IMG/VR virus record: IMGVR_UViG_3300029893_000017
Coordinates: 1 to 44,468 of that record
Reading direction: 5' to 3' (one strand)
DNA: 44,468 bases
Source of the DNA: a virus
Part shown: in pieces, positions 186 to 40,825 of the stretch
How positions within the stretch are numbered: the first letter of the stretch is position 1
Layout of the letters: every line of letters starts with the position of its first letter
Notes under the pieces: generated by a model
Seen by the model: only the letters and a program-made list of their open reading frames with translations
Databases searched by the model: none
Told to the model about the DNA's origin: nothing
Translations under genes and position numbers: made by a program

Positions 186-1412
186 ATGAACGCAGAAGTC
201 CTAACCAACCTGGGCCGGGGCACGCTCGTTGAGGTGTTCAAGCTCTGCAATCCGCCCTTCCCGATGGGCCGGAACGCGAGCAAGGCCGAGATTATCGAGA
301 AGCTCGTGCAGCTCTCCCCCGCGCTGGTTGAGCGCGCCGTCGCCAAGGTGCAAGCCGCCGCGCGTGCGGCCGAAGCCGCGAAGAATGGCGAGACCGCCGT
401 CCCTCAGATTTTCCCAGAGCAGAAGCCGCAGGCTGTTGGCGTCGATCTCGCCGCCCAGCCGAAAGCTGGCTCCCTGCTCGAGCAAGCACTGACGCAGATG
501 ATTCGGGGCATGGTTGGGAAGGTGGACACTAAGGTGGACGCGGAGCAGGTAGCCAAGATCGTTGAAGAGCGATTCTCGTCACTCTCAGCGAGCTTCAGGT
601 CGATGATCGAGGAAGCCGTAAAGCCGCGCATCGAGAAGGTTGTCATCCACGAGACGACCAAGAAGGAGATCACCGTCGGGCGCACGCACAAGGCTTTCGA
701 CCGCGTGCTGAAGCTCGCGCAGGTACGCCACAACACGATGCTGGTCGGCCCGTCGGGCTGCGGCAAGACGCATCTTGCCGAGCAGGTAGCGAAGGGGCTG
801 GACCTTCCTTTCTATTCGGTCTCCTGCTCGATCGGCATGTCGGAGTCGCAGCTTACCGGCTGGCTGCTCCCGATCGGCGACAGCGGGCGATTCGTGTACG
901 TGCCCGCCACGTTCGTCAAGGCGTACGAGGAAGGCGGGGTGTTCCTGCTCGACGAAATGGACCGCTCGGACGCTAACGTGCTGCTCGTGCTCAATCAGGC
1001 TCTTGCCAATGGGCGCTTCTTCATTCCGCAGCGCCATGAGAACCCGCTTGTGAAGCGCCACAAGGATTTCGTCCTGATCGCCGCCGCTAACACGTTCGGG
1101 CACGGCGCGGACATGGTGTACGCGGGCGCGGAGAAACTGGACGGCGCGACTCTCGATCGCTTCCGGTCGGGCATCGTTCACATGGATTACGACGCGGACC
1201 TTGAGCGCGAACTGATCGACAAGAGCGTGCTTAAGTGGGGGCTGCCCATCCGCCAGAAGATCAACGACTGCAAACTCCGCCGCGTGATGAGCACGCGCGT
1301 CATGCGCGACTTCACCGAGCAGAAGCAGGCGCACGGCTGGGGCGTGAAGGAGTGGGAGCAGTCCTATTTCGCAGACTGGACGCGCGACGAGCGCGCCAAG
1401 GTGGGGAAATAG
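186..1412 (+). CDS. MoxR/CobS-like AAA+ ATPase
   Basis: A 408-residue AAA+ ATPase. The Walker A motif GPSGCGKT is near residue 190 and the Walker B motif VFLLDEMDRSD near residue 250, followed by a sensor-1-like stretch (VLIAAANTFG) and a helical lid. The first ~50 residues, with lysines and a KAEIIEKLVQL helix, resemble a SAP- or Rho-N-like nucleic-acid-binding segment. ATG at 186 is chosen because AGGAG lies at 171-175; an upstream TTG at 132 has no comparable site. In the family such ATPases remodel or load metal-dependent partners and are usually paired with a VWA-domain protein; the next gene, three bases downstream, fits that role weakly. The substrate is unknown. Confidence 0.85.
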   Translation: MNAEVLTNLGRGTLVEVFKLCNPPFPMGRNASKAEIIEKLVQLSPALVERAVAKVQAAARAAEAAKNGETAVPQIFPEQKPQAVGVDLAAQPKAGSLLEQALTQMIRGMVGKVDTKVDAEQVAKIVEERFSSLSASFRSMIEEAVKPRIEKVVIHETTKKEITVGRTHKAFDRVLKLAQVRHNTMLVGPSGCGKTHLAEQVAKGLDLPFYSVSCSIGMSESQLTGWLLPIGDSGRFVYVPATFVKAYEEGGVFLLDEMDRSDANVLLVLNQALANGRFFIPQRHENPLVKRHKDFVLIAAANTFGHGADMVYAGAEKLDGATLDRFRSGIVHMDYDADLERELIDKSVLKWGLPIRQKINDCKLRRVMSTRVMRDFTEQKQAHGWGVKEWEQSYFADWTRDERAKVGK

Positions 1413-1415
1413 ACC

Positions 1416-2258
1416 ATGCCGACAATCCACGAAATGTCGAGCCTTGAGGAATACGCGGCCCTCGAACCGTCCAAGGCGAACGCCGCCCTCTGGAAAAAGA
1501 TCGTCGAGCAGCACTCGCACGATTCGTATCGCTGGTACGGGGTGCGCGACGTAAAGGAAGTGGAGCGCATCGTCGCGGCGTGCCACTGGCCCGAAGGCGT
1601 GGAGAGGCTGGAAAAGGCTTTCGAGCAGATAGAAGTGCCGCCCGCTGTCTCGATCCGCCGCAAGCTCGTGCGCGGCTCCTTCGGCGGAGACTCCGTTGAC
1701 ATTCACGCCGTATACCGGGGAGACCTTGAGCACGCATGGACGCGCCGCGCTCGCCGGCAGGCGCACGGTGGGACCGCGTACAAAACGCTGTACTTCCCGT
1801 TGATCCATTCGGGCGCGACTAGCTCCGACTCAATCTTCTGGCGCGCGGCTGCAATGGTGAAGCTGGCCGACGTGCTAACAGAGGCCGGCTATAGCGTCGA
1901 GATCGTGGGGCACCACGGGGTATGTAACGGCTACTACGAAGGTGGCTGGGAAAACTCGAAGTCGAAGGACGTTTACCACCGCGTAATCGTCAAGGCGCAC
2001 AACGCGCCGCTGGACAAGTCGGCGCTCGTGGTTGCCACGTGCCTTGCCGGCTACAGCCGCACGGTCGGGTTCAAGGCGATCACTTCCGTCCCGTATCGAG
2101 TCAATAGCGGCCTAGGCCCTGCCGACTACCGTTGCCCGCCCCAGTGGAAAGGCGCGGACACCGTGGCCGACTTCCACAACATAAACAGCAGGAGCGACGC
2201 GCAGGCTTTCGTTACCTCGCAGATAGCGAGGCTGACCAAGGTTCAAGAAGCCGCCTGA
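1416..2258 (+). CDS. Probable VWA-like partner of the AAA+ ATPase
   Basis: A 280-residue protein starting three bases after the ATPase gene, so probably co-translated with it. Around residues 130-170 an SGATSSDSIFWRAAA stretch followed by a long helix and a YSVEIVGHHG strand resembles a von Willebrand factor A fold with a degenerate metal site (SGAT in place of DxSGS). That reading rests partly on the frequent MoxR-VWA pairing in bacteria and phages. No catalytic motif is evident. The TGA stop codon is also nucleotides 4-6 of a hammerhead ribozyme core. It could be an unrelated phage-specific family. Confidence 0.6.
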   Translation: MPTIHEMSSLEEYAALEPSKANAALWKKIVEQHSHDSYRWYGVRDVKEVERIVAACHWPEGVERLEKAFEQIEVPPAVSIRRKLVRGSFGGDSVDIHAVYRGDLEHAWTRRARRQAHGGTAYKTLYFPLIHSGATSSDSIFWRAAAMVKLADVLTEAGYSVEIVGHHGVCNGYYEGGWENSKSKDVYHRVIVKAHNAPLDKSALVVATCLAGYSRTVGFKAITSVPYRVNSGLGPADYRCPPQWKGADTVADFHNINSRSDAQAFVTSQIARLTKVQEAA

Positions 2259-2302
2259 CGAGTCCCCTGGTCGGGACGAAACCCCAAGGACGGGGTAGCG
2301 GT
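2250..2302 (+). ncRNA. Type I hammerhead ribozyme
   Basis: All conserved hammerhead elements are present in order. CUGACGA (2255-2261) is followed by stem II GUCCC/GGGAC (2262-2266 with 2273-2277, loop CUGGUC), GAAA (2278-2281) and stem III CCCC/GGGG (2282-2285 with 2292-2295, loop AAGGAC). U2296 pairs with A2281 and the cleavage-site base is A2297 (GUA triplet). Stem I, GCCGC/GCGGU (2250-2254 with 2298-2302), is open-ended, which makes this type I. Beyond an internal loop, GUU (2241-2243) can pair with AAC (2307-2309). Predicted cleavage is between 2297 and 2298. The UGA in the core is the stop codon of the upstream gene, so the ribozyme would separate that coding region from the mRNA of the small genes downstream. 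Confidence 0.88.
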
Positions 2303-2328
2303 AGCCAACAACACAGGAGCAGAACGAA

Positions 2329-2598
2329 ATGAACAAACATACCCCGGCCCCTTGGTGCTTGAGCGACGCCGAACGCTACGTGGTAGCGAAGAACGCCGAG
2401 CTGATAGCCGATTGCTTCGCGGAGTCATCCGAGGATCGCGCAAATGCCCGCCTGATCGCCCAATCGCCCGCGATGCTGGAAGCACTCCGCGAGTGCCTTG
2501 GCGCTATGGACTCCATGCGCGAGCAGATCGAGAGGACGAAGCGATCGAAAACGCCTGCCAAGAACACGACGATGCGGACGCGCTCGCGCGCACCGTAA
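2329..2598 (+). CDS. Small Ea22-like protein, possibly frameshifted
   Basis: An 89-residue ORF with an AGGAGC ribosome-binding site at 2315. The segment ARLIAQSPAMLEALREC is typical of a widespread small phage protein family. After about residue 65 the sequence becomes basic and unlike the family (TKRSKTPAKN...). The -1 frame over the same DNA instead reads EDEAIENACQEHDDADALARTVIANATEE and stops at 2621, which matches the usual family ending. A one-base deletion or a -1 frameshift near 2545-2555 would join the two. Function unknown. Confidence 0.7.
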   Translation: MNKHTPAPWCLSDAERYVVAKNAELIADCFAESSEDRANARLIAQSPAMLEALRECLGAMDSMREQIERTKRSKTPAKNTTMRTRSRAP

Positions 2599-2627
2599 TC
2601 GCAAACGCAACCGAGGAGTAACGACCA

Positions 2628-2720
2628 GTGGCAACAAGCGGAATCTTCTGGCTCACCTACATGTTGATTGCGATGACGCTGCTCGCCAAGAGCGTGTCTG
2701 TCCTGATCTCGTATCTCTAA
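2628..2720 (+). CDS. One-helix membrane peptide (30 aa)
   Basis: A 30-codon ORF starting with GTG, preceded by GAGGAG at 2613-2618. The product reads ATSGIFWLTYMLIAMT and onward, a single hydrophobic helix that fills most of the chain. It sits between two genes with the same kind of ribosome-binding site and no spare non-coding DNA. Function unknown; it is one of several tiny membrane peptides in this operon. Confidence 0.55.
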   Translation: MATSGIFWLTYMLIAMTLLAKSVSVLISYL

Positions 2721-2734
2721 CCGAGGAGACAACC

Positions 2735-2980
2735 ATGCACACGAACGCTAATAGCACGCCGGCCCTTCAGCCCTTCTACGTGCTCCTGCTCTACCCGGAC
2801 TACATGTCTGATAGCTACGGGCATGAAACGTACTTCGCCCACGTCGAGGCAGAGACGGCCGCGAGCGCGGTGGAAGCCGCGCAGGCAGCCGCCGCCTACG
2901 CGAACCGCAACGACGAGAGCGCAGACGACTTCTACCCGCTGCTCGTGCTGCGCGGGCACGTCGAACCCGAGACCGTTTGA
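2735..2980 (+). CDS. Hypothetical protein (81 aa)
   Basis: An 81-residue, alanine-rich acidic protein. ATG at 2735 follows GAGGAG at 2723-2728. It has a FYVLLLYPDYMS strand near the start, an alanine-rich helix (residues 40-60) and an FYPLLVLRGHVE strand at the end, suggesting a small alpha/beta fold. No family recognised. A GCTAATAGC motif lies 12 bases into the gene. Confidence 0.65.
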   Translation: MHTNANSTPALQPFYVLLLYPDYMSDSYGHETYFAHVEAETAASAVEAAQAAAAYANRNDESADDFYPLLVLRGHVEPETV

Positions 2981-3011
2981 TTCGATGGCGCGGGCACCGG
3001 GAGAGGCAAAG

Positions 3012-3203
3012 ATGTTCCAGATCGACCGCACCGACGAGCTGCACACCCTGATGCGCGAGCACCGGAAGGGCTGCAACGACGTGGCCAAACTGCTCGGCAG
3101 ATCGCCGCAGACCGTCCGCGCATGGCGCTCGCGCAGCAGCGGCCGACCGATCCCGCGCTATGCGCTGGAACTGTTGAGGTTCAAGCTGAGCAAACGCAAA
3201 TGA
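3012..3203 (+). CDS. Small helix-turn-helix protein
   Basis: A 63-residue DNA-binding protein. The helix-turn-helix DVAKLLGRSPQTVRAWRSR occupies residues ~25-43, followed by a conserved-looking IPRYALELLRFKL helix seen in small phage Cro/CII-like regulators. The start at 3012 has GGGAGAGG just upstream; an in-frame ATG at 2985 would add nine residues but lacks a clear site. It probably regulates transcription in this early module. The target is unknown. Confidence 0.7.
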   Translation: MFQIDRTDELHTLMREHRKGCNDVAKLLGRSPQTVRAWRSRSSGRPIPRYALELLRFKLSKRK

Positions 3204-3295
3204 GGCCGATGGCAACACGATACAGGGGAGCGGCGCTTGCCCGCTGGTACTTGCGCCGCGCGATACGTTGGCTTAACGAAGTAGTCGAACCGTAG
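3200..3295 (+). CDS. Tiny basic peptide (31 aa)
   Basis: A 31-codon ORF whose ATG overlaps the previous TGA as ATGA, the coupling used repeatedly in this operon. The product is arginine-rich and amphipathic (RYRGAALARWYLRRAIRW). It ends just before the next ribosome-binding site (TAGGAGG). Coding status is inferred from packing and coupling only; no function can be assigned. Confidence 0.45.
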   Translation: MRPMATRYRGAALARWYLRRAIRWLNEVVEP

Positions 3296-3304
3296 GAGGC
3301 ACTC

Positions 3305-3496
3305 GTGGACAGAAAGCAAATCGTTGCAATACTCCGCTGGCCTGAAAACAAGAGGCGAGGCACCGTGCCCTGGTTTGTCGTGCTTCGGCGGCTGACATTC
3401 TGGCCGATCATGTTCGTTGGGTTTTCTGTTTCATGGATAGCGATAGCTTGTGCATACGGGCTGGACGATGCCAAAAGGTTTTGGCGCGACCTCTGA
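3305..3496 (+). CDS. Single-pass membrane protein (63 aa)
   Basis: A 63-residue protein with a GTG start preceded by GGAGG (3296-3300). A basic N-terminal third is followed by a membrane segment at residues ~28-50 (FWPIMFVGFSVSWIAIACAY) and a short charged tail. No family is recognised. Its place among small early genes suggests a host-interaction role, which is inference only. Confidence 0.6.
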   Translation: MDRKQIVAILRWPENKRRGTVPWFVVLRRLTFWPIMFVGFSVSWIAIACAYGLDDAKRFWRDL

Positions 3497-3513
3497 AAAA
3501 TAGGAGACAAAAC

Positions 3514-3813
3514 ATGGGACGCATGACGGTTTACCTGACGGACGGGACGAGCACCGCGCTCGAAGTCGATAAGGCTCCGACGCTGGAGCAACTGCAAAAG
3601 CTGGTCGGTGGGTACATCGAGATCGTCCACGTGCTCTACAACGGACAGCGGGCGCAGATGATCGTGAACGACGAGGGGCACATTCACGGGATGCCACCGA
3701 ACCATATGGGGACAGCGATCTACCACGCAACCGCTCGCCTGCGCGGATACGTCACCGGGCACCTTATCGTCGGCGACGTGGTTGTGCTCGAAGGCAGCGC
3801 GATGCTCAAGTGA
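3514..3813 (+). CDS. DUF3846-like protein
   Basis: A 99-residue protein with ATG after TAGGAGAC. It shows the pattern of the DUF3846 family of small phage/plasmid proteins: an early LEQLQKLVGGYIEIV segment, a central MIVNDEGHIHGMPPN with the characteristic N/DE-G-x-x-x-x-x-P-N, and a terminal HLIVGDVVVLEG strand. The family is common in phage accessory regions and has no agreed function. Confidence 0.7.
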   Translation: MGRMTVYLTDGTSTALEVDKAPTLEQLQKLVGGYIEIVHVLYNGQRAQMIVNDEGHIHGMPPNHMGTAIYHATARLRGYVTGHLIVGDVVVLEGSAMLK

Positions 3814-3820
3814 GGTAGAC

Positions 3821-4048
3821 ATGCACGTCATCACAGCTATTAGCGCCATCGGCACCGTGACCCGGCTGCAAGTGGGCTGCGCCGACATGGCGCAGGACAT
3901 GGCCGAGTGGCTGGCAAGCAAGGGGTTCGCGGTTGACCACAACCCCAACGGGGAACCGCAGGCGCGCGGCCCCGAGGAGAACAAGCGGGCGCTCGATCTG
4001 GCCGAGCTGTACGCGCGCGACCGCTTCGGCATCGAGGGGGCGCACTGA
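3821..4048 (+). CDS. Hypothetical protein (75 aa)
   Basis: A 75-residue protein starting eight bases after the previous stop, with GAGGT upstream. It begins MHVITAISAIGTV and carries a helix (ADMAQDMAEWLASKGF) and an acidic end. The fold looks alpha/beta; no family recognised. It ends in TGATG overlap with the next start, so the two are likely co-translated. Confidence 0.6.
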   Translation: MHVITAISAIGTVTRLQVGCADMAQDMAEWLASKGFAVDHNPNGEPQARGPEENKRALDLAELYARDRFGIEGAH

Positions 4049-4227
4049 TGACACCGAAGCACCTGACCACGCACGTCGAGCGCCGCGAGCTGTACACGCA
4101 CGTCGAGGTTCGAGACGGCGATCGCACCGTGGCGCAGACGACGATCAACCCGACCGACTGCCCGAACAAGGCAGCCGAGCGGCTGAAGCACAGCTATCTG
4201 ATGCTGCATTACGAGGAGGAAGCATGA
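4048..4227 (+). CDS. Hypothetical protein (59 aa)
   Basis: A 59-residue charged protein whose ATG shares one base with the previous TGA (TGATG). It contains a strand-rich first half (RRELYTHVEVRDGDRTV) and a C-terminal helix (AAERLKHSYLMLHYEEE). No family is recognised. Four-base ATGA overlap with the next gene indicates translational coupling. Confidence 0.55.
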   Translation: MTPKHLTTHVERRELYTHVEVRDGDRTVAQTTINPTDCPNKAAERLKHSYLMLHYEEEA

Positions 4228-4613
4228 ACAAGCCGATGACGATACGCGAAGCCGCGCGCAACCGCGTGCCACTCAGCGGTCCAGACGCGCAGGCTTTGGA
4301 GGGCGGGCTTTCACAATGCGAGCGCGAGCTGGCCGAGCTGAAACGATGGGCCGAGACACCGCCGCCGGGATACGAGCGATTCATGCAGATATGGGGTGCG
4401 TGCGTCCGGCTGGTTGAGAAGGCATCGTTTAAGGTGATGTTCAACTACGCCGAGGAGCTTGAGCAAAAGCTGAAGGAGACGCGCAGCGCGCTCGAAGAAT
4501 CCGTGAAGCTGCAAAGCCACTACGCCGAGCTGTTGAACATGCACGACGGCGGAAAGCGGCGGGTGTTCACGGCCGATGAGTGGATCGCGCGACTCAAGAA
4601 GGATTGGGCATGA
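4224..4613 (+). CDS. Coiled-coil hypothetical protein (129 aa)
   Basis: A 129-residue protein with ATG coupled to the preceding stop (ATGA) and GAGGAGGA upstream. Residues ~28-45 (QCERELAELKRWAE) and ~75-105 (YAEELEQKLKETRSALEES) are predicted helices with coiled-coil character; the C-terminus ends VFTADEWIARLKKDWA. No enzymatic motif is seen. Function unknown. Confidence 0.65.
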   Translation: MNKPMTIREAARNRVPLSGPDAQALEGGLSQCERELAELKRWAETPPPGYERFMQIWGACVRLVEKASFKVMFNYAEELEQKLKETRSALEESVKLQSHYAELLNMHDGGKRRVFTADEWIARLKKDWA

Positions 4614-4708
4614 ACAGGCTTGATCTGTTGGTTATGACGGTTATGTGGGTGGCGCTCATCGTCGGCACCTACTGGCTTGGTGAACTGCTAACAGCAATCC
4701 TTAGCTGA
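4610..4708 (+). CDS. One-helix membrane peptide (32 aa)
   Basis: A 32-codon ORF whose ATG overlaps the previous stop as ATGA. The product is almost entirely one hydrophobic helix (LLVMTVMWVALIVGTYWLG). It resembles the peptide at 2628 in size and hydrophobicity but not in sequence. Coding potential is supported by coupling and packing. Function unknown. Confidence 0.5.
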   Translation: MNRLDLLVMTVMWVALIVGTYWLGELLTAILS

Positions 4709-4721
4709 GAGGGAGGAAAGC

Positions 4722-5021
4722 ATGAGCAACTGTAAAGATTGCGGCGCGCGTAAAGATCACTACATGGCACCAGACGGGTGCCCGTTCTGCTATCCCGAGC
4801 ACGAGGTCTTTCACAAGTACACCCTGACCACGCTACCCGACGGCCGCATCGACGGGACGTACGAGACGAACGACGACGAGGACCGTGGCTATCCGTCGGC
4901 GCACGCCGTCGGGGTTGTCGGCTATCGGGACTACGCGCAGATGAAGGCCCACACGGGGCTTTCCCACACGGGCGCGAACGGTTGCAAGGTGACGGTCATC
5001 CTTGACGGGGAGGAAGTGTGA
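4722..5021 (+). CDS. Zinc-ribbon protein (99 aa)
   Basis: A 99-residue protein with GAGGGAGG upstream of its ATG. The N-terminal CKDCGA and CPFCYP pairs (residues 4-7 and 20-23) form a likely four-cysteine zinc ribbon. The remainder is acidic with strands and ends in KVTVILDGEEV. The GTG of the next gene overlaps its stop. Probably a small nucleic-acid- or protein-binding adaptor; the target is unknown. Confidence 0.65.
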   Translation: MSNCKDCGARKDHYMAPDGCPFCYPEHEVFHKYTLTTLPDGRIDGTYETNDDEDRGYPSAHAVGVVGYRDYAQMKAHTGLSHTGANGCKVTVILDGEEV

Positions 5022-5230
5022 ACAAAGCACGCGAAGATACGATCCGCGAGATCGCCGACGATCTCCTTGGCACGTGTCAGACACTCGCCGAGGTTTGCGA
5101 GAAGCACGACATCAGCGACGACAATCTGACCGGAGAGGATCTGCTACTCTTCTGTGAAACGTGCGGATGGTGGCAGCCTGCCGACATTGACGATAACGGC
5201 AACTGCCCTGACTGTAGAGACGACGACTAA
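5018..5230 (+). CDS. Acidic zinc-ribbon protein (70 aa)
   Basis: A 70-residue protein starting with GTG in a GTGTGA overlap with the previous gene. An N-terminal helical half (REIADDLLGTCQTLAEVCEKH) is followed by CETC...CPDC (residues ~46-49 and ~63-66), a second likely zinc ribbon. The C-terminus is very acidic (CRDDD), unlike a simple DNA-binding protein. It may act with the preceding zinc-ribbon protein. Function unknown. Confidence 0.65.
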   Translation: MNKAREDTIREIADDLLGTCQTLAEVCEKHDISDDNLTGEDLLLFCETCGWWQPADIDDNGNCPDCRDDD

Positions 5231-5242
5231 ACGGGAGGCAAT

Positions 5243-5455
5243 ATGAGCACAAAAACCAAAACGCTGTTAGCTATAATCGCAATCGCATTGCTAGCAGGAT
5301 GCGGGAGCGGTGGCGGTGGTGGTGGAGGAACCTCACCCGAGGTCCAGCACACCGGCCCTACCGAGTGCCCGGAGGGGCAGCACCTTGAGCGCGCACCAGA
5401 TCCTTATCCAGGACGCGCATTTCTGATATACGAGTGGTACTGCGTGCCAGATTAA
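5243..5455 (+). CDS. Small phage lipoprotein
   Basis: A 70-residue protein with ACGGGAGG before its ATG. A lysine-containing N-terminus, the hydrophobic core LLAIIAIALLAGC and a lipobox LAGC with Cys at residue 20 mark a lipoprotein signal peptide, so the mature protein would be lipid-anchored. A glycine run follows, then a short domain with two cysteines. Phage lipoproteins of this kind can block superinfection or modify the envelope; which applies here cannot be told. A GCTGTTAGC motif lies within the signal sequence. Confidence 0.7.
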   Translation: MSTKTKTLLAIIAIALLAGCGSGGGGGGGTSPEVQHTGPTECPEGQHLERAPDPYPGRAFLIYEWYCVPD

Positions 5456-5493
5456 ACGTAACCCGCGACAAGGCGATAGCCGAAGGAGGAACC

Positions 5494-5505
5494 ATGAAGC
5501 GCTAA
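5494..5505 (+). CDS. Possible three-codon minigene
   Basis: ATG AAG CGC TAA follows an almost ideal Shine-Dalgarno stretch (AAGGAGGA, 5483-5490) at good spacing. It would make only M-K-R. It may be a regulatory minigene comparable in form to lambda bar minigenes, or the head of a deleted gene whose ribosome-binding site survives. Confidence 0.3.
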   Translation: MKR

Positions 5506-5535
5506 GCTGATCCATGCCATGCACCCACAACAAGA

Positions 5536-5563
5536 GGGGCGCTCCGTGCGCCCCTTCGTTTTT
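5536..5563 (+). terminator. Rho-independent terminator
   Basis: A perfect 7-bp stem GGGGCGC/GCGCCCC with loop TCCGT is followed by TTCGTTTTT. It ends the plus-strand operon of small genes. Apart from it, the possible minigene and the 15-bp repeat, I see no gene in 5456-5705. Confidence 0.85.
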
Positions 5564-5571
5564 GTGTGAAC

Positions 5572-5586
5572 TACCGTTCGTCGGAT
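5572..5586. repeat. 15-bp repeat shared by two leader regions (copy 2)
   Basis: TACCGTTCGTCGGAT, identical to 78-92. It lies between the terminator and the next plus-strand gene. A TATAAT hexamer occurs further down in this leader (near 5673) but I could not find a convincing -35 box. Confidence 0.5.
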
Positions 5587-5705
5587 CGTCTCGCTCGGGA
5601 GATAGCGACACGCGCCCTCGCTAAGTGATTGATGGTTCGTCGCAACATCGGAGAGCGCGGAGACCGACCTGATATAATTACGTTTGTCAACCTTGGAGAA
5701 CACGC

Positions 5706-5987
5706 ATGGCAACCTACTACGAGTGGACGGTCGAGGAGCTGGACGAGCACGGCGACATCATCGACTGCTACTTCTACGATCGCATCACCGAAATCCCACG
5801 TCACTGGCTTGACAACGAGCTGATGGACATAGGATTGGTATGGCGAACCGGCAACGAGGACGACGGCGAGACAGATCGCGCCTACGCATACATCGATCGC
5901 GGAACGATGACGCTCAGTAGGATGTTTGACAACGGCAAGAAAGTGCCGTCCCGGCTGTTGGCCGAGGCGGATCGCTGGATAAGATAA
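5706..5987 (+). CDS. Hypothetical acidic protein (93 aa)
   Basis: A 93-residue protein with TTGGAGA upstream of ATG. The sequence is acidic and aromatic-rich, with a repeated-looking beta character (YYEWTVEELDEHG, CYFYDRITEIP, RAYAYIDRGTMTLS). It is the only gene between the 5536 terminator and the convergent minus-strand operon. It sits behind its own leader, so it is probably transcribed separately. No family recognised. Confidence 0.65.
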   Translation: MATYYEWTVEELDEHGDIIDCYFYDRITEIPRHWLDNELMDIGLVWRTGNEDDGETDRAYAYIDRGTMTLSRMFDNGKKVPSRLLAEADRWIR

Positions 5988-6009
5988 TAGGAGAAAACCG
6001 CCAAAGCTA

Positions 6010-6327
6010 TTAGCCCGCAGGAGCAGGCGCGGTCCCCGTCACCGTGCCGTTCAGCGTATCATTGATGGCGATCTGCACGAGGCCGATCGCCCCGGGCAGC
6101 GACTCGTTCGCCCACGTCATCGCCGTGTACGCGCCGTTCGGAAGGGTGACACCAACCACGGACACGACAGAGATCGGAGTGCCCTCCGTGATCGCCCGCT
6201 CCACACGATCGCGCAGTATCTCGACTGCCTTGCGCGCCATGTCCTGCCAGCCTTCCTTCGGCACATCGTTTGCGGACGGGACTCCGCTCAGTCCCGGGAA
6301 GTTAATCACCCTCGGTCTATCGCTCAC
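6010..6327 (-). CDS. Hypothetical protein (105 aa)
   Basis: A 105-residue protein, last gene of the minus-strand replication operon. The GTG at 6327 overlaps the stop of the preceding gene as GTGA, the coupling pattern of this operon; a longer in-frame extension upstream is a shadow. The centre (VEILRDRVERAITEGTPISVV) combines a helix with strands. The sequence ends in a threonine/alanine/proline tail. A GCTATTAGC motif includes its stop codon. Function unknown. Confidence 0.65.
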   Translation of the reverse strand: MSDRPRVINFPGLSGVPSANDVPKEGWQDMARKAVEILRDRVERAITEGTPISVVSVVGVTLPNGAYTAMTWANESLPGAIGLVQIAINDTLNGTVTGTAPAPAG

Positions 6328-6896
6328 GCTATGTACCCCTTCTCGTTGAGAATGTCGCAGACGCTTCGCTCGCCCAGCTCTTGCCAGATCGCCAGCTTCT
6401 CCCGAAGCGCCTTGATAAGGTCCGCCCAGCCGTCCTTGTAGAGAGTCTGCCGGGAGACGCCTATGCTGCGCGCCACGTCGCTCATGCGCTGCCGCCGGTT
6501 GAGCAGCACGTAGCTGCGATAGCCACGCAGCATCGCATCGGCGAGGTTCACGAGCTGAAGATGGTGACGCCCCTCGACGAGCTGGGGAAGCAGCTCGCGG
6601 AGCTGCGCCACAAGATAGCCGCAGATCTCCATGCGCCGCAGCGCATCGTCGCGCCCGAAGATCTGCAAGAAGAAGCGCCCAATCATGGCGGGCTCCATAC
6701 CCTGCGCCGCCAGGACGATCGTGAGCGCCTGATCTTGCAGCTCCGCCATCGTGAACTCGCTGCCGCCCGGGACGCGCGTGAGCTTGCCGATCTGGCTTTG
6801 CGTACCGCCGGCCCGGTCCAGCATTTCCTCCGCCCACGCCACGGCCGACGCCGCATCGGGAAACTTGATCCTCTTCTCCGCTATTAGCGCGTTCAC
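6324..6896 (-). CDS. Helix-turn-helix protein (190 aa)
   Basis: A 190-residue protein starting with GTG that overlaps the preceding stop by one base (TAGTG). The C-terminal half contains a clear helix-turn-helix (MSDVARSIGVSRQTLYKDGW, residues ~137-156) near a basic RSYVLLNRRQR. The N-terminal half is helical. It resembles a transcriptional regulator or a terminase-small-like DNA binder, but its place at the end of a replication operon favours a regulator. No family is firmly recognised. Confidence 0.65.
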   Translation of the reverse strand: MNALIAEKRIKFPDAASAVAWAEEMLDRAGGTQSQIGKLTRVPGGSEFTMAELQDQALTIVLAAQGMEPAMIGRFFLQIFGRDDALRRMEICGYLVAQLRELLPQLVEGRHHLQLVNLADAMLRGYRSYVLLNRRQRMSDVARSIGVSRQTLYKDGWADLIKALREKLAIWQELGERSVCDILNEKGYIA

Positions 6897-7474
6897 TAGC
6901 AGCCGTCCTCCCGTACGTTCTCGAGCATTAACCCGTCGATGCACTCGTGCAGCTCGGAGATCGTGCCGTAGTTGTGGACCCAGCGATCCCCGTCCGCAAA
7001 CGCGACACCAGCCTCGCTCACGTGCGCCGCCACCGACTCGATGACGGGGCGTACGACGTGCCACACAGCGCCGCCGGTCTTGCGAATCCACGCCGCCTCG
7101 TTCTCGAAGCGCACGTCGGACACCACCATACCCACGGGCGCCGGGCCGAACGTGTTACGCACCATGTCCACCAGTGCGTCGTAGCGAAACTGCGCCATGC
7201 GAATCCAGATGTCCTCGCAGATCATGTTCCGGCCGAACTCCGTGCCGAACCACTGAGCGAGCTGGCGCGGAGACTTACCACCCAACCGCTCGATCGGCTG
7301 CTCCTTGCGTGCGCGGTCGGCGAAGTCGAAGGGCATGAGACCGAACGCAGCGCACAAGCCCTGCTTGATCGGATCGGCGAAGCCGTACCGCTCGAAGCCG
7401 TACTCCCTCACCAGATACTCGGCAACGGTGTCCTTCCCCGAGCCGGCCTTGCCTGTCACGCCTATTAGCTTCAC
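6896..7474 (-). CDS. Deoxynucleoside monophosphate kinase
   Basis: A 192-residue P-loop kinase that would phosphorylate dNMPs to dNDPs in the cytoplasm to feed phage replication. The Walker A motif GKAGSGKDT is at residues ~7-15. SDVRFENEAAWIRKTGG near residue 140 is characteristic of T4 gene 1-type dNMP kinases, as is the adenylate-kinase-like helical substrate region. GTG at 7474 is preferred because GGGAGGAAGG lies directly upstream; an in-frame GTG at 7510 would add 12 residues. It is co-transcribed with dUTPase and other nucleotide-metabolism genes. Confidence 0.85.
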   Translation of the reverse strand: MKLIGVTGKAGSGKDTVAEYLVREYGFERYGFADPIKQGLCAAFGLMPFDFADRARKEQPIERLGGKSPRQLAQWFGTEFGRNMICEDIWIRMAQFRYDALVDMVRNTFGPAPVGMVVSDVRFENEAAWIRKTGGAVWHVVRPVIESVAAHVSEAGVAFADGDRWVHNYGTISELHECIDGLMLENVREDGC

Positions 7475-22160: not shown

Positions 22161-23343
22161 CCGCCTCGGGTGCCTGCGCCCGCCACTCCTCTGACGGATC
22201 GAGGACGTGGATCGGGGCGGTGATGGTCATGCCGTGCTCTGAATCCGTCAGCCAGAAGGCTTGACGCGGCGGCTCGAAGTCGAGGTTGTTGAGCGCCGCG
22301 TGCTCGTCATAGCCCTTCAGGCTGCCGTTCACAATGAGACCCTTGAAGTATGCGAGCTGGTGCCAGTGCCCCATCACGAGGTAATCGTACGGGGTGCCGG
22401 TAGCCTGCTCGCGCTTCCGCTTGCGGTGATCGCCGAGCATCAGCGGCGACAGCAGGCCGGCGATGCCAGATCCGCCCCGGAACTGGTCTCCGTGCGTGAG
22501 CTGATAGCGCGTGTTGTACAGCGTGTAGCGGAAGTCGGCCCCGGTGCTAATGGCGAAGCGCACGGCCGGGTTGCCCTTGAAGTGCCGGGCGACGAGGTTG
22601 TAGATCAGGTAGTCGAAGGAGTCGGTCGATCGGTGCTTGGCCCGTGGCTTCTTGTCCAGCCGGCCGTGATTGCCGACGACGCACGGAGAGTACACTTCCC
22701 CGAAGTGCTTGGCCAGCAGCTCGAACCCCGCTATGAGCTGGTCCGCGTAGAACAGGCACGTCTCGATGATCGTGTCCTCGTTCGTCTCGCGCAGCTCCTC
22801 GTGGATGTTGCCGCTCACCATGTCCCCGATCATGGGCAGCACGATGCCGTCCACCTTCACCCCGCTGATGTAGTCGCTGGACAGGCGCACCGTGTTGGAG
22901 AAGAAGTTACGCAGCCGCATGACCGCGATCTCGCGGTTGTAGCCGTTGACGTAGTTGATCTCCTCCGGGTTGACTACCTCGTCGAAGTGGCAATCCGACA
23001 GGACCGCCGTGACGATGGCCCGCTCCTGCCGGCGGCTGCTCTTTGGGGCCAGCCACTTCGGCGGGGAGGACTCCGCCGCTACTAGCTTGGAGAGGAAGCG
23101 GGTGAAGTTGGCGTCCCGCTCGAACTGCTCGGCCCGCTCGTCGAGCTTCCGGCGCAGCTCCCGGTTCTCCTTCTTGAGCCGGTGCTCCTCGTGGAAGTTC
23201 AGTGTCTCGGCCTCCTTGCCGATGGTGTTGCCGACCTTGCTGCGGAGGGTGGAGCGTGAGATCCCAAGTGCCTTTGCCGCCTCGGTCTTATTCCCGTTTG
23301 CCTTCTTGATCGCCTCGATACAGTGCTCGCGTGTGATAGCCAT
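22138..23343 (-). CDS. Fis-type HTH fused to a metallophosphoesterase
   Basis: A 401-residue two-domain protein. Residues ~5-35 (IEAIKKANGNKTEAAKALGISRSTLR) form a Fis/HTH_8 helix-turn-helix, and a charged coiled-coil linker follows (RLKKENRELRRKLDERAEQ). The rest is a calcineurin-like phosphoesterase with its metal motifs in order: SDCHFDE, MIGDMVSG, VVGNHGR, LTHGDQFR and VMGHWHQL. In the first motif Asp-x-His is intact; in the third the usual GNHD is GNHG. It would cleave phosphoester bonds, possibly on DNA or nucleotides. The ATG shares one base with the stop of the giant virion gene, so it is made with the late genes. Confidence 0.85.
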   Translation of the reverse strand: MAITREHCIEAIKKANGNKTEAAKALGISRSTLRSKVGNTIGKEAETLNFHEEHRLKKENRELRRKLDERAEQFERDANFTRFLSKLVAAESSPPKWLAPKSSRRQERAIVTAVLSDCHFDEVVNPEEINYVNGYNREIAVMRLRNFFSNTVRLSSDYISGVKVDGIVLPMIGDMVSGNIHEELRETNEDTIIETCLFYADQLIAGFELLAKHFGEVYSPCVVGNHGRLDKKPRAKHRSTDSFDYLIYNLVARHFKGNPAVRFAISTGADFRYTLYNTRYQLTHGDQFRGGSGIAGLLSPLMLGDHRKRKREQATGTPYDYLVMGHWHQLAYFKGLIVNGSLKGYDEHAALNNLDFEPPRQAFWLTDSEHGMTITAPIHVLDPSEEWRAQAPEAVRFVLAA

Positions 23344-26300
23344 TATTGTTTTTTGAATACCTCATCGGCCCGGTTTTTAAGATTCGTCATCTTCTTTCGG
23401 ATGACTGCCAGTTGCTCGTTGTAGGTCTCTTTGCTGATAAGCCCCCTGTTGTAGTCCTGCGCGAGCTGCCGCCCCTCGTACTCAAGCTCCCGACGCACCT
23501 TGCCCAGCTCAAGCGCCCAGCCGCGCATCCCGAGCTTCACGTCATGCGGGACGAGCTTCACGCCGAGAGACGAACCCACCGCGTATTTTAGATCATACTG
23601 GTTGCCGAGAATATCGCGTGCGCCCTTCGCGGAACGCTCGATCTTCTCCCAGTACCACGACTCGTAGATCCACGGAGCGGACGGCATCCACGAGCGCCAC
23701 AGATGCGAGATCGCGCCCTTGGCGATGTCGCCCGCGTCCGACGTGTAGGGGTTCACGATGTTCTCCCCGGTGAAGGCGGAGCGGTTCAGCGCGAACTCCG
23801 CGGCGAGCATGATGGGACCGCCGAAGATCATGGGCGCCGGCACGGGCAGCACGCCCTGACTCTGGCCCATGTCGAAAATATCGCCGGCCGGGATATAGCG
23901 CCGCACGTCGAGGAATACAGGGTTCCCGTTGCCGTCGCGCCAGCCCATGCGGATCATGCGCGGCGCACCAAGCCACGTGAGACCCTGCTGCTCCTCGCGC
24001 AGCGACCGGCGCTCCTCGTCCTCGTCGCCCGGCTCGAAGGCATACCCGAGGGCGTTGACCATGTACGCGATCGTCGCGTACTTGGCGAGCTTCCACGGGC
24101 GCTCGGCGATGGTCTTGGCTAATAGCGGGACCGCGCGGTAGGTGTAGGCGATGAATGGCAGCACGGTGGACCGGGCCGCGTTCACCCACGGAGCGCGGAT
24201 GTCGTAGCCGATGAACTGTTCCCGCGCGAACCGGGCAGCGTGCTTCGGGCTGTCGCCGAGCGAGATCCGGCGCATGTACGTCGCCACGCGGAAGATCTCA
24301 TCTTCGAGCTGGTAGAGGTTGATGAGACCCTGATCGGCCTTCTGAACCCCGGTAACGATCGCGTCCAGCATCCGGCCGAGGCCCGCCGCCTGCGCGCCAA
24401 GGTACTGCTCGGCGATGTTCTCCGCCCAGCCCTTGTCGGTGCGCGCCTGATTCATAATCTCCTTCAGGATCGGATCAAGGACGTTCTGCTTGATCTCGTG
24501 CAGCACGAAGTTGGACCCGAACGCGCCGTGCTCCTGCGCGTCCTTGTAGTCCTGCGTCTTGTCCTTCATGGCCTGAAGCGCCCGGTACAGATCGCGCATC
24601 CGAATGTCGGCCATGTCCATCAGGATGATGTTCGACATGACGTTGTTCATGTGAACGACGGGATTGCGCGCGGTCTTGTTGAGCTTCCACTGGGTAAGCA
24701 GCGTGTTCCAGAGGCGCGGGCGTTGCAGCTCGTGGAGCTGGTTGAGATCACGCCAGATCTCCGCGCGCACGTAGCGCCCGGCGAGCGCGCCCCACCGCTT
24801 GCGGCCCGGTGCGCCCGGGATCGTCGTGTCGGGCACGCGCACCCAGTCATAGCCGGTGAACACGCTGAAGCGGTTGGAGTGCCCGCCGTCGTACACGTTG
24901 CCCGTCGGCTCGTCCTTTCCGGGGTACGTCCACTCCTGATTCTTGGCGATGTCGGCGAGGAAGCGGCCGGTGGAGAGATCGTGCGCCATGACGTGAAAGG
25001 TCTTGGCGATCGTGTAGCGCGCGTCGATGATCTCGCCCATCTTCTCGCGCTCCTCCTTGGTGAAGTCGCGCCAGAGCACGTATTCGCCGCCCTGCGTGTC
25101 GCGCACTTCCCATGTGCCCATGTGCTCGTACGCCTGATACTTCGCCGGGATCGGGCGGTCGGCCGGCACGAACACGCGCTCCAGCACACGCGGCTTCTGC
25201 CCGCCAGCACCCATGCCAGAAAGCGCGCCGACGCCCTGCCCCACGTTCGAGACCTTGTGCAGCATGTGGAACTTCTCGCCCACGAACCGCTTGTCGGCCT
25301 TTCCGATCTGCTCCTTCTTGCCGAACCACTCCGGGTGCAGCTCGAGCAGCTTGCGCGGATCGACCTTCACTTCGAGGCCGCGCTTCTTGAGGGCGTTGCC
25401 GATGATGCGCTTACGGCGCGAGGACAGCATACGGGACACCATGCCGCCGAGCGTGCCCTGGTCGGCCTCGTGCTTCCTGTAGACGCGGTGCAGGTAGGTG
25501 GCTCGGTTCTTCTCGTATGTCTCCTTCGAGATCAGGCCCAGCTCGACCGCCTCGTGGCCCAGCTCGTCGATCGCCTTGCGGATCGGCTCGGAGAGCTTCT
25601 GCCACTTCTCGTCGGCCATCACTTCGCCGGCAAGGACGCCGTGCAGCACTTCGGCCTCCGCCGTGCTCATCCCCTTCTCCATGAGGGTTGTAACGATCTC
25701 CGCGCCCTTCAGGGCGATGCGGCGCTCGTGCGCGGCGCGCTCGGTGTCGAGATCCTTGTACTCCTCGGACAGACCGTAGCGGTCCACCAGACCGGCGCGA
25801 GCGACATCCAGCATCTTGTTCACGTGGCCGAGGAAACTGTCGTCGGCGACGTTCTTGAACTTCGCCTGCGTCAGCCCGCTCTCGATCTTGTCGATCGCCC
25901 ACTTGGTTCCCTTGTCGATCTGCGCGAGCTTGAAGATCCCGCGGAACACGCCCTCGATCGGACGGCCCTCCTTGATCGTGTCGAGCACGCCTTCGCCGCT
26001 CGTCATGGTCGAGGCGCCATTAGCCTGCGCCGCAAAGAACTCGTCGCCCCGATGCGCCGACGCCATTCGCACGTTCTCGTCGCGCACCGCCGCTTCGACC
26101 AAGGCGTAGCCGGCGTCGAGCACGGCGTCGAGGTAAGTCGGAGATCCACCGTCCTTGCCAAGCCCGAGGAGGCGAGAGAGGAACCGCTTGAACTTTGTCC
26201 ACGCGGTATCGCCCATGTACTTCTGCCCGTCGAGCCACGCTTGGAACTGCGGGTTGGTCATGGAGTACGTGATGAACTCGTCGAAGTTGGACAGCGGCTC

Positions 26301-29300
26301 GGACAGCCACACGTCACCACCGCGCCCGTAGTCGTTCGCCTTGCCGAGCTGCTTCCACATTTCGATCAGGCGCATCATCGGCTCGTTGGCGGCGCGTTCC
26401 GGCGCGGCCCCGGTCAGCACCTTCACGCCGTACCGCTTCAGGAACTCGCCGTAGCGATACGCGAGCGCAGCGTGCAGCGCCTCGTGCAGGAACACTTCTT
26501 CCGTGACGCCAGTGAGGTTGTTCGGGTTGGTGTCGTGGCGCAGGTACACGACGAGGCTGCCGTCGCGGCGCTTGCCGGCGATGCCGTAGGCGGAGTTGAG
26601 CGCGGCCGGCACGCCCTCCGGGTACACCTTGCCCGGCTGAATCAGGCGCAGCTCGACGTGCGGTGCGATCTTCGAGAGCAGGCGGGCAAGCTCAGCGTAC
26701 GCACGGTTGCCGCTATTCGCGGCGATCCATTCCAGTCCGTCCTTCAGTGTCTTGCTCTTTGCGACGGTCTGGACGAACCCGGCCGGCTTAGAGAAGGCGC
26801 GGCCGGTTGCGGCCGACAGGGCGAGGCCGGCGAGCATCTTGACCGTGCGGCGCTTGCTCATGTCCACGTCGCCATCGACGGCGGCGTATCGCACGTCGTC
26901 TAAGTCGGCCTCCTTGTTGCCGGAGTACGGCTTGGCGATCCCGGCAAGGGACTTCGGCGCGTAGAGCGCGGTCTTGCCCTGGATGTAGGCAATCGCGGCG
27001 CGGGCGCTCGCGCCCGATACCTCGACCTCCATCATGTTGCCGACCGAAACGAAGTCTCCCGTGTGCGCGAGCAATCCCTGATCCAAGAACCACCGACCGC
27101 CGGTAGCCTTCGCCGTCGGCGTGCGGATCTTGACCATGCCGCGCATCCGCCCCGGGACCACGCGCACCGTCGAGTCGCGTGAACCGACGCCGAAGCGGGA
27201 CACGTCGTTGTTGCTGGCGTAGGCGTCGAGGAAGTCAATGACCCCCTGCGGGTCGCGCATCGCCAGCTCGCCGGAAAGCTGCTCGTCCTTGTTGAAGTTC
27301 TTGGGGAGCAGGATGCCCTGCGTCACGCTGCCGTCGCTGTCCGTGAAGTGGACGATCTGAGCGGACACGCCACGCAGCTCTGCGTAGGCGGAGAGCAGGT
27401 TGCCGGTGATGATCTGGCGCTTCTCGCGCGCGTTGCCGATGTTGCGCGGATCGAACGCCTGCTCGGTGCGGCCCCAGTAGCGACCGTTGAACAAGCCGCT
27501 GTCGCCCGTGAGCTTCGAGAGAGGGACCGTGATCTGGCGGATGCCGTTGTTCACCATGAAGGTGACGAGCGTCTTGCTCTTGGCGTACGGGTTCGCGCGC
27601 GGGCCTTCCTTCGACTTGTCCTTCACATCCACCACCACGCCGACAACAGACTCGCCATTGATGTCGAGGCGGACGGCGGTGCCGATCTGAAGCATGTCGC
27701 GCAGGTGGCTCTGGAAGCTCGCCCGGCTGGCCTCGTAGTCGCCCAGCCGCTTGCGGAGTCCTTCCAGCAGGCGCTCGATCATGCCGGCGTTCTCGCTAGT
27801 GCGCGCTTCCTCCGCGCCGTCGATCGCCCGGAGCAGGGCTTGGCGGTAGATCTCGCCCTTGCGCTCCTTCTCCGAGGAGATCTCGTTCATCACGGTGGAC
27901 ACCGACCGGCCATCAAGGCGCTCGCTAATAGCCCTCTGGACTTCATCGAAGGTCGGCGGCTTGCCGAGGCGGCGCACGTCGTACTCCACGAGTACGGCAT
28001 CGCCGCCGAACGGGTTGGAATGGTCGCGGCCCGGGACGATGATCTCCTCCTTCAACTTCTTCGCATCGAGATCGAGCGTCTTTGGTTCGAGGTCGTTCTG
28101 GCCGATCTTGTCCAGGTACTCGATGAGCGCCCGGTACTCCGTCTCCACGTGCTCATAGAACTCGCGCTGCTGGTCGATCGGCATGAGCGCCATGCGGCCA
28201 GTGGCCTTGCGCGCCACGTCCCTGTTGTCGTCGCCCATGTTGATGCGAAGCTCCACGTCCAGCCCGGTCTCGTTCATGTACTCGGCGACAACCTGATCGC
28301 CGTACTTGTTGAGGATGTCGGGCGCGTCGATACTGGTCGCGGACTCCGTGTTCGAGGACACGTTCGCGTTGAGCTTCTTCATCTTGCCGGCGAGCACGGC
28401 TGTCGGGCGCTTCTCGGCCGGCAGATCGACGTTGAGGATGGTGTAGCGCGGCGGGACAACCTGCCCGGTACGATGCACGCGGCCGAGCATCTGGACGAAG
28501 ATATTGATGTCCAGCATGGGCTGGGCCACGATCATGTGCCGGCGGCTCTGGTCGAGGAACTTTTCGCTGGCGTGCAAGCTGATGCCCGTCGAGCCTGCGA
28601 CGTTGAGGATCAGGGCGTCGAGCTTGCCGCTGTTGAACTCGTCGCGCGTGTTCCAGCGGTCGTCGGCCTCGGCCGATCCGATGCGCGCGAGCTTCGGCAC
28701 GGCCTGACCGTAATCTACCTTCCATTCGCGGCCGGTGATCTCCTTGACGAAGTAGCCGGCCTTCTCAAGGCGATGGCGGATCCAGTCGATCGGAGACGCG
28801 GGGAGATCCAATTCGAGGTTGTCGATGACCTCCTGCGCCGCCTCGTAAGCGGCGTACACGGGCGGGGGCAATTCCTCGAGCGGGACTTCCTGAATCACGT
28901 CGTTGCCGAACTCGTCGCGCACCTTGATGCGACGTGTGCGGCGAAGCGCGCGGTTGAGCACGGTGCGAAAGTCGTAGTCGGTAAGCTCCGCGCCCTCGCC
29001 CAGCTTGTTCTCCTTGACGTACTCGCCGAGGAAGGAACCCATCGTGTTTTCCAGCGCGATGACCGGCTTCTCGCCGTTCTTGAGCGCCTGGATGGCGCGC
29101 TCGGCGGCGGTGTCCACCTTCAACGCTAATAGCATCTGGCGCACGAAGTTGTGGACGACGGCCGAGAACTCGGTGTGGTCGATGCCCTTCTTCGAGGCGT
29201 TGTTGCCGGCTCCGCCGCTGCGCCGGCCCTCACGGCGCATCTTCTTGTCCAGCTCCTTGATGTGAAGGTGGAACAGATGGTCGGCGTGAACGATTGCGCG

Positions 29301-32300
29301 CAGCGCCTCGGTCGCGCTGTCCGACATGCCCTCGTGCTTCTCGCGGCTCGCGGTGTCAACGTCGGTGCGGATCTCCACGCCCCCGAAGTCGCGCTCGCGG
29401 CGGAATAGCTGGCCGGTCTCGGTGAGCAGGTTGGAGACGACGGTTTGCAGAGGCAGCCCGCCAGCGTCCATCGCGTCAACGAGCTGGTCGATGCTATCGA
29501 CCGCCGCTGATAGCGCGGTCTTGAAGTACACCGGCATGTTGTCCGGCCGCTTCGCGTAGGTCGCGGACAGGTAGGTGACGCCCTGCGCCGACGCAAGCAC
29601 GCCGCGCACGAACTCGCCCGTGTTCGAGGAACCGCCAGCGTTGTGCGACTCGTCCAGCACGAAGATCGCGCCCTGCGCCACGCGGCCCACCGCTTCGCGC
29701 TGCACGTTCTCCGTGTTGATCTGGCTGTACGTCATAAAGAGCGCGTTGCGCCCTTTCGGCAATTCGCCGGTCGCGGCGATCTGGCGCAGCACCGCGCCGT
29801 GCCGGTTCTTGTCGTTGGCGTAGAGCGGCTTGCCGTCCTTGTCCTTGATCGACTCGTCCTTGTTGAGGACGAAAGGATGGATGTCGCGCGATCCGATGTC
29901 GGCAAGGTCGTTGAACATATCCGTGAACAGGTCGGGCTTGACCGTCACGAAGATGGGAACCTTGTCGTGCTTCACGGCGTAGCGGATGATCGCGGCAGCC
30001 TGCCGGCCCTTACCGATGCCGGTCTGGTCGGCGATGATGACGCCCTGCCCGTTCTCGATGTTGTAGATCGCCGCGGCGATGGCGTCGATCTGCAAGCCCA
30101 TGAAGGCGTCGAACAGCTCGGCCTTGCTCTTGTAGCCGAGCTTGTCCATCACGTACTGATCGAGATCGCCTACCTCCTCGACGAGACGATCGAGCGCCTT
30201 TTGGATGGCAGCATCCATGTTGACGGGCACAAGGGCGCCGTCGGATGCTGCGGCCGAGCGGGAGCGGTACGGAACCTGAAACTGGTTTGGCTTGCCTTCG
30301 CGGCTTTCTACATTTCCTCGATTAGCGCCGCGAGACTCATTTCCTTGAACGCCTGCTCCATCCTCAACGATTCCTCCGTTGTCGGCGGTCTGGTCTCCTT
30401 GCTCCAGTCGATCATCCCGAGCAGATGATCCATCCTGTCGCTCGACATCAGTGCGCTCGCCAGTTCGAGTGTTCCCAGCTCGTCCGCTTCCGATTCGAGT
30501 CCCGACACCGCCTCCTGCACCAGATACACCGCTTCCGTCCCGGCTTCCTGTACCAGCCTGCTGACCTTCACTTCCATCAGATCGGCGTGTTCCTGCGGCG
30601 TCAGATTGGTCTTGCTCGGCGGAACCCTGACCGCCAGAGCTGCCTTCTTGTTGTCCGGCACGGTCTTGGGAAACCACAACCTCCCGTGCTGCGGCGAGTG
30701 TATCTTCGTATTTGGCATAGAGTTGTCCCCAGTCGCTTACGCGCTCGATTTCACCAGAAACGGGCGACTTCTTGCCAGTCTCGGCCCGCCCGGCGATCGT
30801 GATGATGCGGATCGGCCAAGCCGCGCCCTGACGGGAGTACAGCTTGCCGTCTACCTCGAAGTGGCCGACCACATTGTACTTACCGTACAGCCAGTTAAAG
30901 AAGATTTGCTCGGCAGACGAGATCTCTCCCGGGGTACGGTTCGCACCTATAATAAGAGTCGCGCGGCCTGCGTCCCGCATGGTCTCAAGGGCTTTGGCCG
31001 CGATCAGGTGGTCGATCTTGTTGATCTTGTACCCGTCGATCCGGGTCTCCTCGGTGCCGCCGAAGGGCGGATTGGCGATAACCGCATCCATCACGCGCGG
31101 CGCAACCCGGCCCTCCTCGATCGCCGTAACCGCATCACCCTCGGCGATGAACGCGCCCGGGAAGATCTGGCGCAGGTTCGCCACGCGGCGGGCGTCCAGC
31201 TCGTTCGCAAAGATTCGTTCGGTGGACGCGCCGATGAGCAACATGCCGTTGCCGGCTGTAGGCTCGTAGACGGTGCGGGTCTGGTCGATGTTGGCGAGAC
31301 GGCTGGCGAGGAACGCGATCGGGGCCGGCGTCGAGTACGCCTGATTGGCGACGCTCGTGGACGTGCGGATGGACAGGTTCGGCTGGCGCAGATAGAGCGC
31401 CTTGAGCTGGTTGAAGATCCACTCGTCTGCCTGCTTGCGCGAGTTTGTGCGGCGGTAGACCTTCTCGCCCTCGGCGATGAGATCGCGCGCGCGCATGACG
31501 ACAGCGGCCTCGAAGTCCTCCTGCGCGCCCTTCATTCTTAGCTGCGACGGCTCCTCGCCGTCGAACTCCGCTACTAGCTTCTTGAGGGCGTTGAAGTCCT
31601 GCGGCTCGTTGCCGGCCTTGATGCGTTCGTAGAACAGGTTGATGAGATCGTCGTAGTCGGTGACGGCGCGCTGCTGCGGGATCGCGGCTGCCTGCGGGAT
31701 GGTGGCCTGCGTCTCGGCCTGCTGCTGGGTGTCCTGCTGCGGGATCTCGATCTGCTCCTGCTGGTCGTCGGCCTTCTCCTCCTTGACTTCCTGACCGCGC
31801 AGGCGCGCGGCGATCTTCGCCGTCGGGTCGCCGCTGTAGAAGCTCCACGCCTTCTTCGGGCCGTACCACTTCCCGCCGATCGCTTTCAGCATGTCCTTGT
31901 GCTTGAGCGTGTTGCCGGTGACTTCCCACACGGCCTTGCTGTTCGCGGTCGTGGACTGGCGCACGTTGAGGCCGGAAGCTTTCACCAGCTCGGCGTCCTT
32001 GTCCTCGTCGTCCTTGCCAGAGACCTTCTTGCCCTTTACCTCGTCATCGGCCTTCTCGTCCTTCTTGTCCTCGGCCTTCTCCTCGGACTTGGCCTCGCCC
32101 TCGTCCATCAGATCTAGCTCGGCCTCGGTGTTCATTTCCTTGCGGTCGATGCCGGGCCAGTTGCGGGCGGCGAGGTAGAGCGAGCGCAGGTACGGGCGGA
32201 TCTTATCGCCGAGATCGGCGATCATGGCCTTGGAGAAGTCCTTGAACTTCCGCGCGCCGGCCTCGACGTGGTACACCGCCAGCTCAGTGCCGAGCGCGAT

Positions 32301-40823: not shown

Positions 40824-40825
40824 GC

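Follow-up and report, generated by a model that had tools for sequence, protein, structure and literature searches.

What is a hammerhead ribozyme doing between two genes of a phage operon when the stop codon of the first gene forms part of its core? The question arises at positions 2250-2302 of a 44,468-nucleotide virus sequence (IMG/VR record IMGVR_UViG_3300029893_000017, positions 1 to 44,468), the whole of which was analysed and is called the window below. It is also a general one: the role of hammerhead ribozymes in phages has been described as open (PMC6155905).

Anatomy of the locus

The features that matter to the argument are listed below. Those of the ribozyme and the Shine-Dalgarno sequence were read from the nucleotide sequence, and all lie on the plus strand.

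186-1412 (+): AAA+ ATPase gene (AAA_5, MoxR/CobS-like; Pfam AAA_5 E = 2.3e-20, PHROG 249), first in the early operon
1416-2258 (+): DUF7192 gene, plausibly VWA-like (Pfam DUF7192 E = 5.8e-25; homologue in contig L002); the ribozyme core takes its UGA from the stop codon of this gene (2256-2258)
2250-2302 (+): type I hammerhead ribozyme, stem I to stem I, as scored by covariance models (see below)
2250-2254 (+): 5' strand of stem I, GCCGC, within the last two codons of the DUF7192 gene (GCC GCC); pairs with 2298-2302
2255-2261 (+): core CUGACGA (C3-A9), containing the stop codon
2262-2277 (+): stem II GUCCC/GGGAC with loop CUGGUC (2267-2272); the pairing holds across relatives
2278-2280 (+): core GAA (G12-A14)
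2281-2296 (+): stem III ACCCC/GGGGU, including A15.1-U16.1, with loop AAGGAC; also compared with L002
2297-2298 (+): predicted cleavage site, after A17 (A2297), from its position in the hammerhead fold
2304-2307 (+): GCCA, predicted to form a pseudoknot (4 bp) with UGGU 2268-2271 of loop II
2315-2319 (+): Shine-Dalgarno AGGAG of the downstream gene, kept on the predicted 3' product
2329-2598 (+): small gene (open reading frame of 89 aa), the first on the predicted 3' cleavage product; another gene is found in L002
5534-5556 (+): intrinsic-terminator-like hairpin, likely the operon end

All the conserved positions of a type I core (C3-U-G-A-N-G-A9, G12-A-A14, the A15.1-U16.1 pair as A2281-U2296, and H17) are present, and they are surrounded by helices of 5, 5 and 5 pairs. 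Stems II (2262-2266/2273-2277) and III (2281-2285/2292-2296) are loop-closed, while stem I (2250-2254/2298-2302, GCCGC/GCGGU, with an outermost G-U pair) is open. The initial annotation had placed every conserved element at these coordinates and had taken the core UGA as the terminator of the upstream gene; both statements hold, the open reading frame 1416-2258 ending with TGA at 2256-2258. The predicted cut at 2297/2298 lies 31 nt before the ATG at 2329. As judged by sequence comparison, the assignment of 2250-2302 as a complete type I hammerhead is well supported.

The description of the upstream gene as VWA-like fared less well, since Pfam assigns the protein to DUF7192. In its favour, an AlphaFold model of medium confidence (pLDDT 63) has NorD VWA domains as its best solved neighbours (E = 3.7e-3), and the adjoining MoxR-like AAA gene is consistent with the same reading. 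On this structural model, a VWA-like protein is plausible.

Scores, folding and relatives of the ribozyme

That the element is an inactive relic or a chance resemblance is highly improbable in our judgement. A full hammerhead as good as that of the window was found in 0/4000 dinucleotide-preserving shuffles of the window, and a loose hammerhead descriptor gave 36 matches in 4000 shuffled windows. The bare core pattern without stems was dropped as evidence, as chance expects it in a window of this size, and the evidence is therefore carried by the stems. A covariance model (R1), trained on 30 other phage hammerheads with the window and L002 left out, gave the window ribozyme 57.7 bits (E = 2.9e-13), and a search of the whole window with R1 up to E = 5 returned no second match. 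Selective conservation in L002 (see below) also argues against a relic.

What could be held in favour of a relic or a chance resemblance is the Rfam score and the predicted fold. An Rfam search at the gathering threshold gave no match for the window ribozyme, to which RF00163 assigns 15.6 bits against a gathering score of 34, a database cut-off and not a structural definition. The same family model stays below 34, with a best score of 33.1, in six other loci with complete hammerheads (L004, L026, L463, L010, L165 and L002), and R1 recovers those tested of the loci missed by RF00163 with low E-values. The cut-off is thus a sensitivity limit for phage members. Covariation within the 30-sequence alignment was dropped as independent proof because its sequences were picked partly for pairing, and we rely instead on the compensatory pair in L002 and on the model score of the window. 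A BLAST search of the ribozyme against named phages returned short chance matches only.

Plain thermodynamic folding was also dropped as evidence (z = -0.88) and is by itself neutral, the hammerhead fold not being the predicted minimum. In ViennaRNA, whose energies take no account of tertiary contacts, the window hammerhead (-22.5 kcal/mol) lies 0.6 kcal/mol above a competing fold (-23.1 kcal/mol). In L002 a competing fold is favoured by 1.8 kcal/mol, and it differs from that predicted for the window. A pseudoknot between UGGU 2268-2271 in loop II and GCCA 2304-2307 could stabilise the window hammerhead, and such pseudoknots have been described in natural hammerheads (PMC3088659). Over 453 hammerheads, pairing of loop II with the 3' flank, which was no criterion in sequence selection, reaches 3.56 bp versus 3.02 bp in re-paired controls (sd 0.034); with the 5' flank the enrichment is only marginal. 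L002 has only 3 bp of this pairing, at positions other than those of the 4 bp in the window. As for the longer stem I pairing proposed earlier, it was unconvincing, and the putative loop II pseudoknot fits better.

L002 (IMGVR_UViG_3300003313_000228) is a 7.8 kb virus contig that carries the same AAA and DUF7192 genes, the two DUF7192 proteins being 64% identical. Its ribozyme also stands behind the DUF7192 gene, which ends at the core UGA as in the window, whereas the gene downstream is a different one. Of the 53 ribozyme bases, 6 are changed between the two sequences: four belong to loop II, and the other two form a single stem III pair (2284-2293), which is C-G in the window and G-C in L002. 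The initial annotation had asked for compensatory changes in stems II and III of relatives: the change in stem III was found, and since stems I and II are invariant between the two sequences, the comparison tests stem III only.

More distant relatives show that these genes do not always come with the ribozyme. In Acinetobacter phages, homologous AAA-DUF7192 pairs are without a hammerhead, as are the more distant DUF7192 relatives in most contigs examined, and in L463 one hammerhead lies between the AAA and DUF7192 genes. From the pairs that lack it, whatever the ribozyme does is not essential to these genes.

Some contigs carry many copies. In L463, eight model matches fall within 8.7 kb: seven are hammerheads with E < 0.001, located at 1667-7360, and the remaining match is weak (E = 1.1); by the descriptor, six complete hammerheads stand behind successive genes, with the upstream stop mostly at -12, at -9 or in the core UGA. 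L026 (9603-11408) and L031 each have four near-identical hammerheads between small genes, with a TAA abutting each stem I, a layout that is cassette-like.

It is conceivable from such contigs that hammerheads are repeated joints between exchangeable small-gene cassettes, where near-identical copies recombine and cleavage is secondary. Several near-identical copies do lie between small genes in L026, L031 and L463, and the gene after the ribozyme differs between the window and L002. Yet the window has a single copy in the R1 search, and the stems vary with compensation, not as identical DNA would, although the part of this argument that comes from the 30-sequence alignment is partly circular. 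We consider a role as a cassette joint improbable for the window ribozyme.

Stop codons at phage hammerheads

The initial annotation regarded the overlap of ribozyme and stop codon as unusual. The overlap is real, but that view of it is wrong, since about a fifth of comparable hammerheads have it. Five pattern scans supplied 412 distinct hammerheads, each flanked by 350 bases or more; for 339 of these, an upstream open reading frame (mechanically called) was found that has 80 or more codons and stops no more than 250 bases away. In 68 of the 339 the upstream stop is the core UGA, and in 118 more it abuts stem I (positions -11 to -5), the mode of the distance from stop to stem I being 0 nt; the stop is thus in the core or against stem I in 186. 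Random positions give 0.2% core-UGA and 1.7% abutting placement, and other CTGANGA sites in the same contigs give 5.8% and 3.8%.

This placement is not built in by the selection of sequences. Two scans without a fixed stem I gave 6 core and 19 abutting stops of 35, and 13 and 32 of 82. When one hammerhead is kept per cluster of upstream proteins, 58 core and 94 abutting stops are left among 272. Moreover, 68 of the 114 reading frames that read into the core are in the frame of the UGA, where one third is expected (p = 8e-9). Phage type I hammerheads thus mostly begin at a stop codon or directly behind it, a placement which suggests that they divide gene messages just past a completed reading frame. 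That the core UGA could act as a backup stop, in frame with a stop before stem I, was considered and dropped, since 36/118 is the chance level.

Cultured phages agree with the survey in their deposited CDS annotation, with 0-1 nt from stop to stem I in LUZ24 (gp5 stop 2407-2409, CDS end 2409, ribozyme from 2410), UFV-P2 (CDS end 3275, model match from 3277) and PaP3 (orf67 stop one base before stem I); in SIP-1 the gaps between stop and ribozyme are 5 and 26 bases. The PaP3 ribozyme is listed as active (PMC3088659). Like that of the window, the hammerhead of PaP3 and LUZ24 (Bruynoghevirus) lies in a phage small-gene region, but its stop is before stem I instead of in the core and its stem III loop is longer. 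Within the same genus, the hammerhead of PhiCHU (L481, 2402-2468) scores 21.5 bits versus 36.0 in LUZ24 and is possibly a decaying copy.

In the open-access literature, where many relevant papers lie outside the coverage, we found no earlier report of the stop-codon rule, which thus appears to be unreported in the searchable literature. We would like to point out that it is this positional rule that is worth following up. Whatever its cause may be, the rule links the ribozyme to the point where a reading frame ends.

What could be that cause? One possibility, to which we give a little less than an even chance, is that sequence economy is the whole cause: the ribozyme sits tightly against the gene before it, the CUGANGA of its core happens to supply a stop, and nothing is regulated by the overlap. 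Gene packing is tight in these genomes, the 25th percentile of the stop-to-start distance being -1 nt at hammerhead-free junctions, and the 3' side of the hammerheads is compact too, with the downstream start 26-43 nt (interquartile range) past the cut, from which it follows that the Shine-Dalgarno sequence generally stays on the 3' product. Related genes also switch in whether the stop falls in the core or ahead of stem I (L193 versus L195 and L186). On the other hand, the same contigs have many junctions with more room (median 29 nt, 75th percentile 92 nt), and still a hammerhead that stands clear of the stop before it is rare; moreover, the 5' edge of hammerhead placement is sharper than the 3' edge.

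Alternatively, cleavage could be gated by translation, a ribosome on the last codons or on the UGA covering stem I and the core so that the cut is made only when translation of the DUF7192 gene lapses. A terminating ribosome reaches about 12-13 nt past the stop. For 235 of the 339, the stop falls within -20 to +20 of the core, which is roughly where such a ribosome would overlap stem I or the core. In the same contigs, intrinsic terminators start a median of 24 nt behind the stop versus 0 nt for hammerheads, a difference that would fit a ribosome-related cause, except that terminators are found where operons end and room is less scarce. Judged by counts only, overlapping and non-overlapping hammerheads look alike in the base that follows the UGA (N7). 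Since sequence economy predicts the same placement and explains it equally well, we consider gating by translation unlikely at this locus. Its extension to the whole class, in which a terminating ribosome and a folded type I hammerhead would be mutually exclusive and cleavage would report that translation of the upstream message has ended, we hold to be just as doubtful; if true, it would answer what phage hammerheads are for.

A probable role in dividing the early mRNA

We argue that the ribozyme of the window is probably a cis-acting type I hammerhead that divides the polycistronic early transcript behind the DUF7192 gene and ahead of the small gene, and so serves as mRNA punctuation. In the early operon of this podovirus-like phage the hammerhead is joined to the DUF7192 gene at its 3' end, and after transcription the polycistronic mRNA would be cut between 2297 and 2298. 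The upstream mRNA would then end in stems II and III with a 2',3'-cyclic phosphate, just past the completed reading frame, and the downstream mRNA would begin with a 5'-hydroxyl and a short leader holding its own Shine-Dalgarno sequence; such end chemistry is established for hammerheads in general. The two gene blocks might thereby acquire separate mRNA stabilities. A stop on or against stem I, the usual site of phage type I hammerheads, would be the nearest possible position behind a finished reading frame.

Several observations are in line with punctuation. L002 keeps both the ribozyme and its overlap with the UGA, and the changes in the ribozyme are confined to one compensatory stem III pair and loop II; the downstream gene is another one. 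In L463, the six complete hammerheads follow successive genes, and the placement rule extends over 339 hammerheads and 272 clusters of upstream proteins. Against punctuation stand the competing folds preferred by ViennaRNA in both the window and L002, together with the hammerhead-less AAA-DUF7192 pairs of Acinetobacter phages and the DUF7192 genes of several contigs that likewise lack it. Hammerheads adjacent to stop codons, with the Shine-Dalgarno sequence left on the 3' product, fit a message divider that uses the least spacer, and they also fit a device that a terminating ribosome would hold open. Sequence economy is compatible with a punctuation role. We therefore place mRNA punctuation first, assign the overlap by default to economy, and regard ribosome gating as the most interesting alternative.

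Comparison with known systems places the element in a known kind, the phage type I hammerhead, of which it is a new member. Hammerheads of this type from phages and prophages (PMC3088659; RF00163) share with it a complete core, three stems and an open stem I, and those of PMC3088659 also share a possible loop II pseudoknot and a site between genes of a phage operon, while often occurring several to a phage. The window ribozyme is set apart from the RF00163 family by its score under the gathering threshold and by the stop codon inside its core; the term 'stop codon' does not occur in PMC3088659, and an in-core stop is not discussed there. For clustered hammerheads of prophages, cleavage has been demonstrated and a role in the processing of long transcripts suggested (PMC3088659). 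The Theta ribozymes of recoded gut phages (PMC10879173) are likewise self-cleaving RNAs in phage transcripts, but they have an HDV-like fold, are associated with suppressor tRNAs and are unrelated in motif.

Other features of the window were noted in passing. An exact 15-base repeat, TACCGTTCGTCGGAT, occurs at 78-92 and 5572-5586, at both ends of the early operon; as a signal it was rejected, being near chance level. On the minus strand, 23343-34775 is a single open reading frame of 3810 codons, whose C-terminal part is weakly related (24.6% identity) to Helicobacter pullorum prophages, and 39186-41069 encodes a member of an internal virion protein family (PHROG 511) common to Bcep22-like (BcepIL02) and Vibrio phages, which by sequence hints at the affiliation of the phage.
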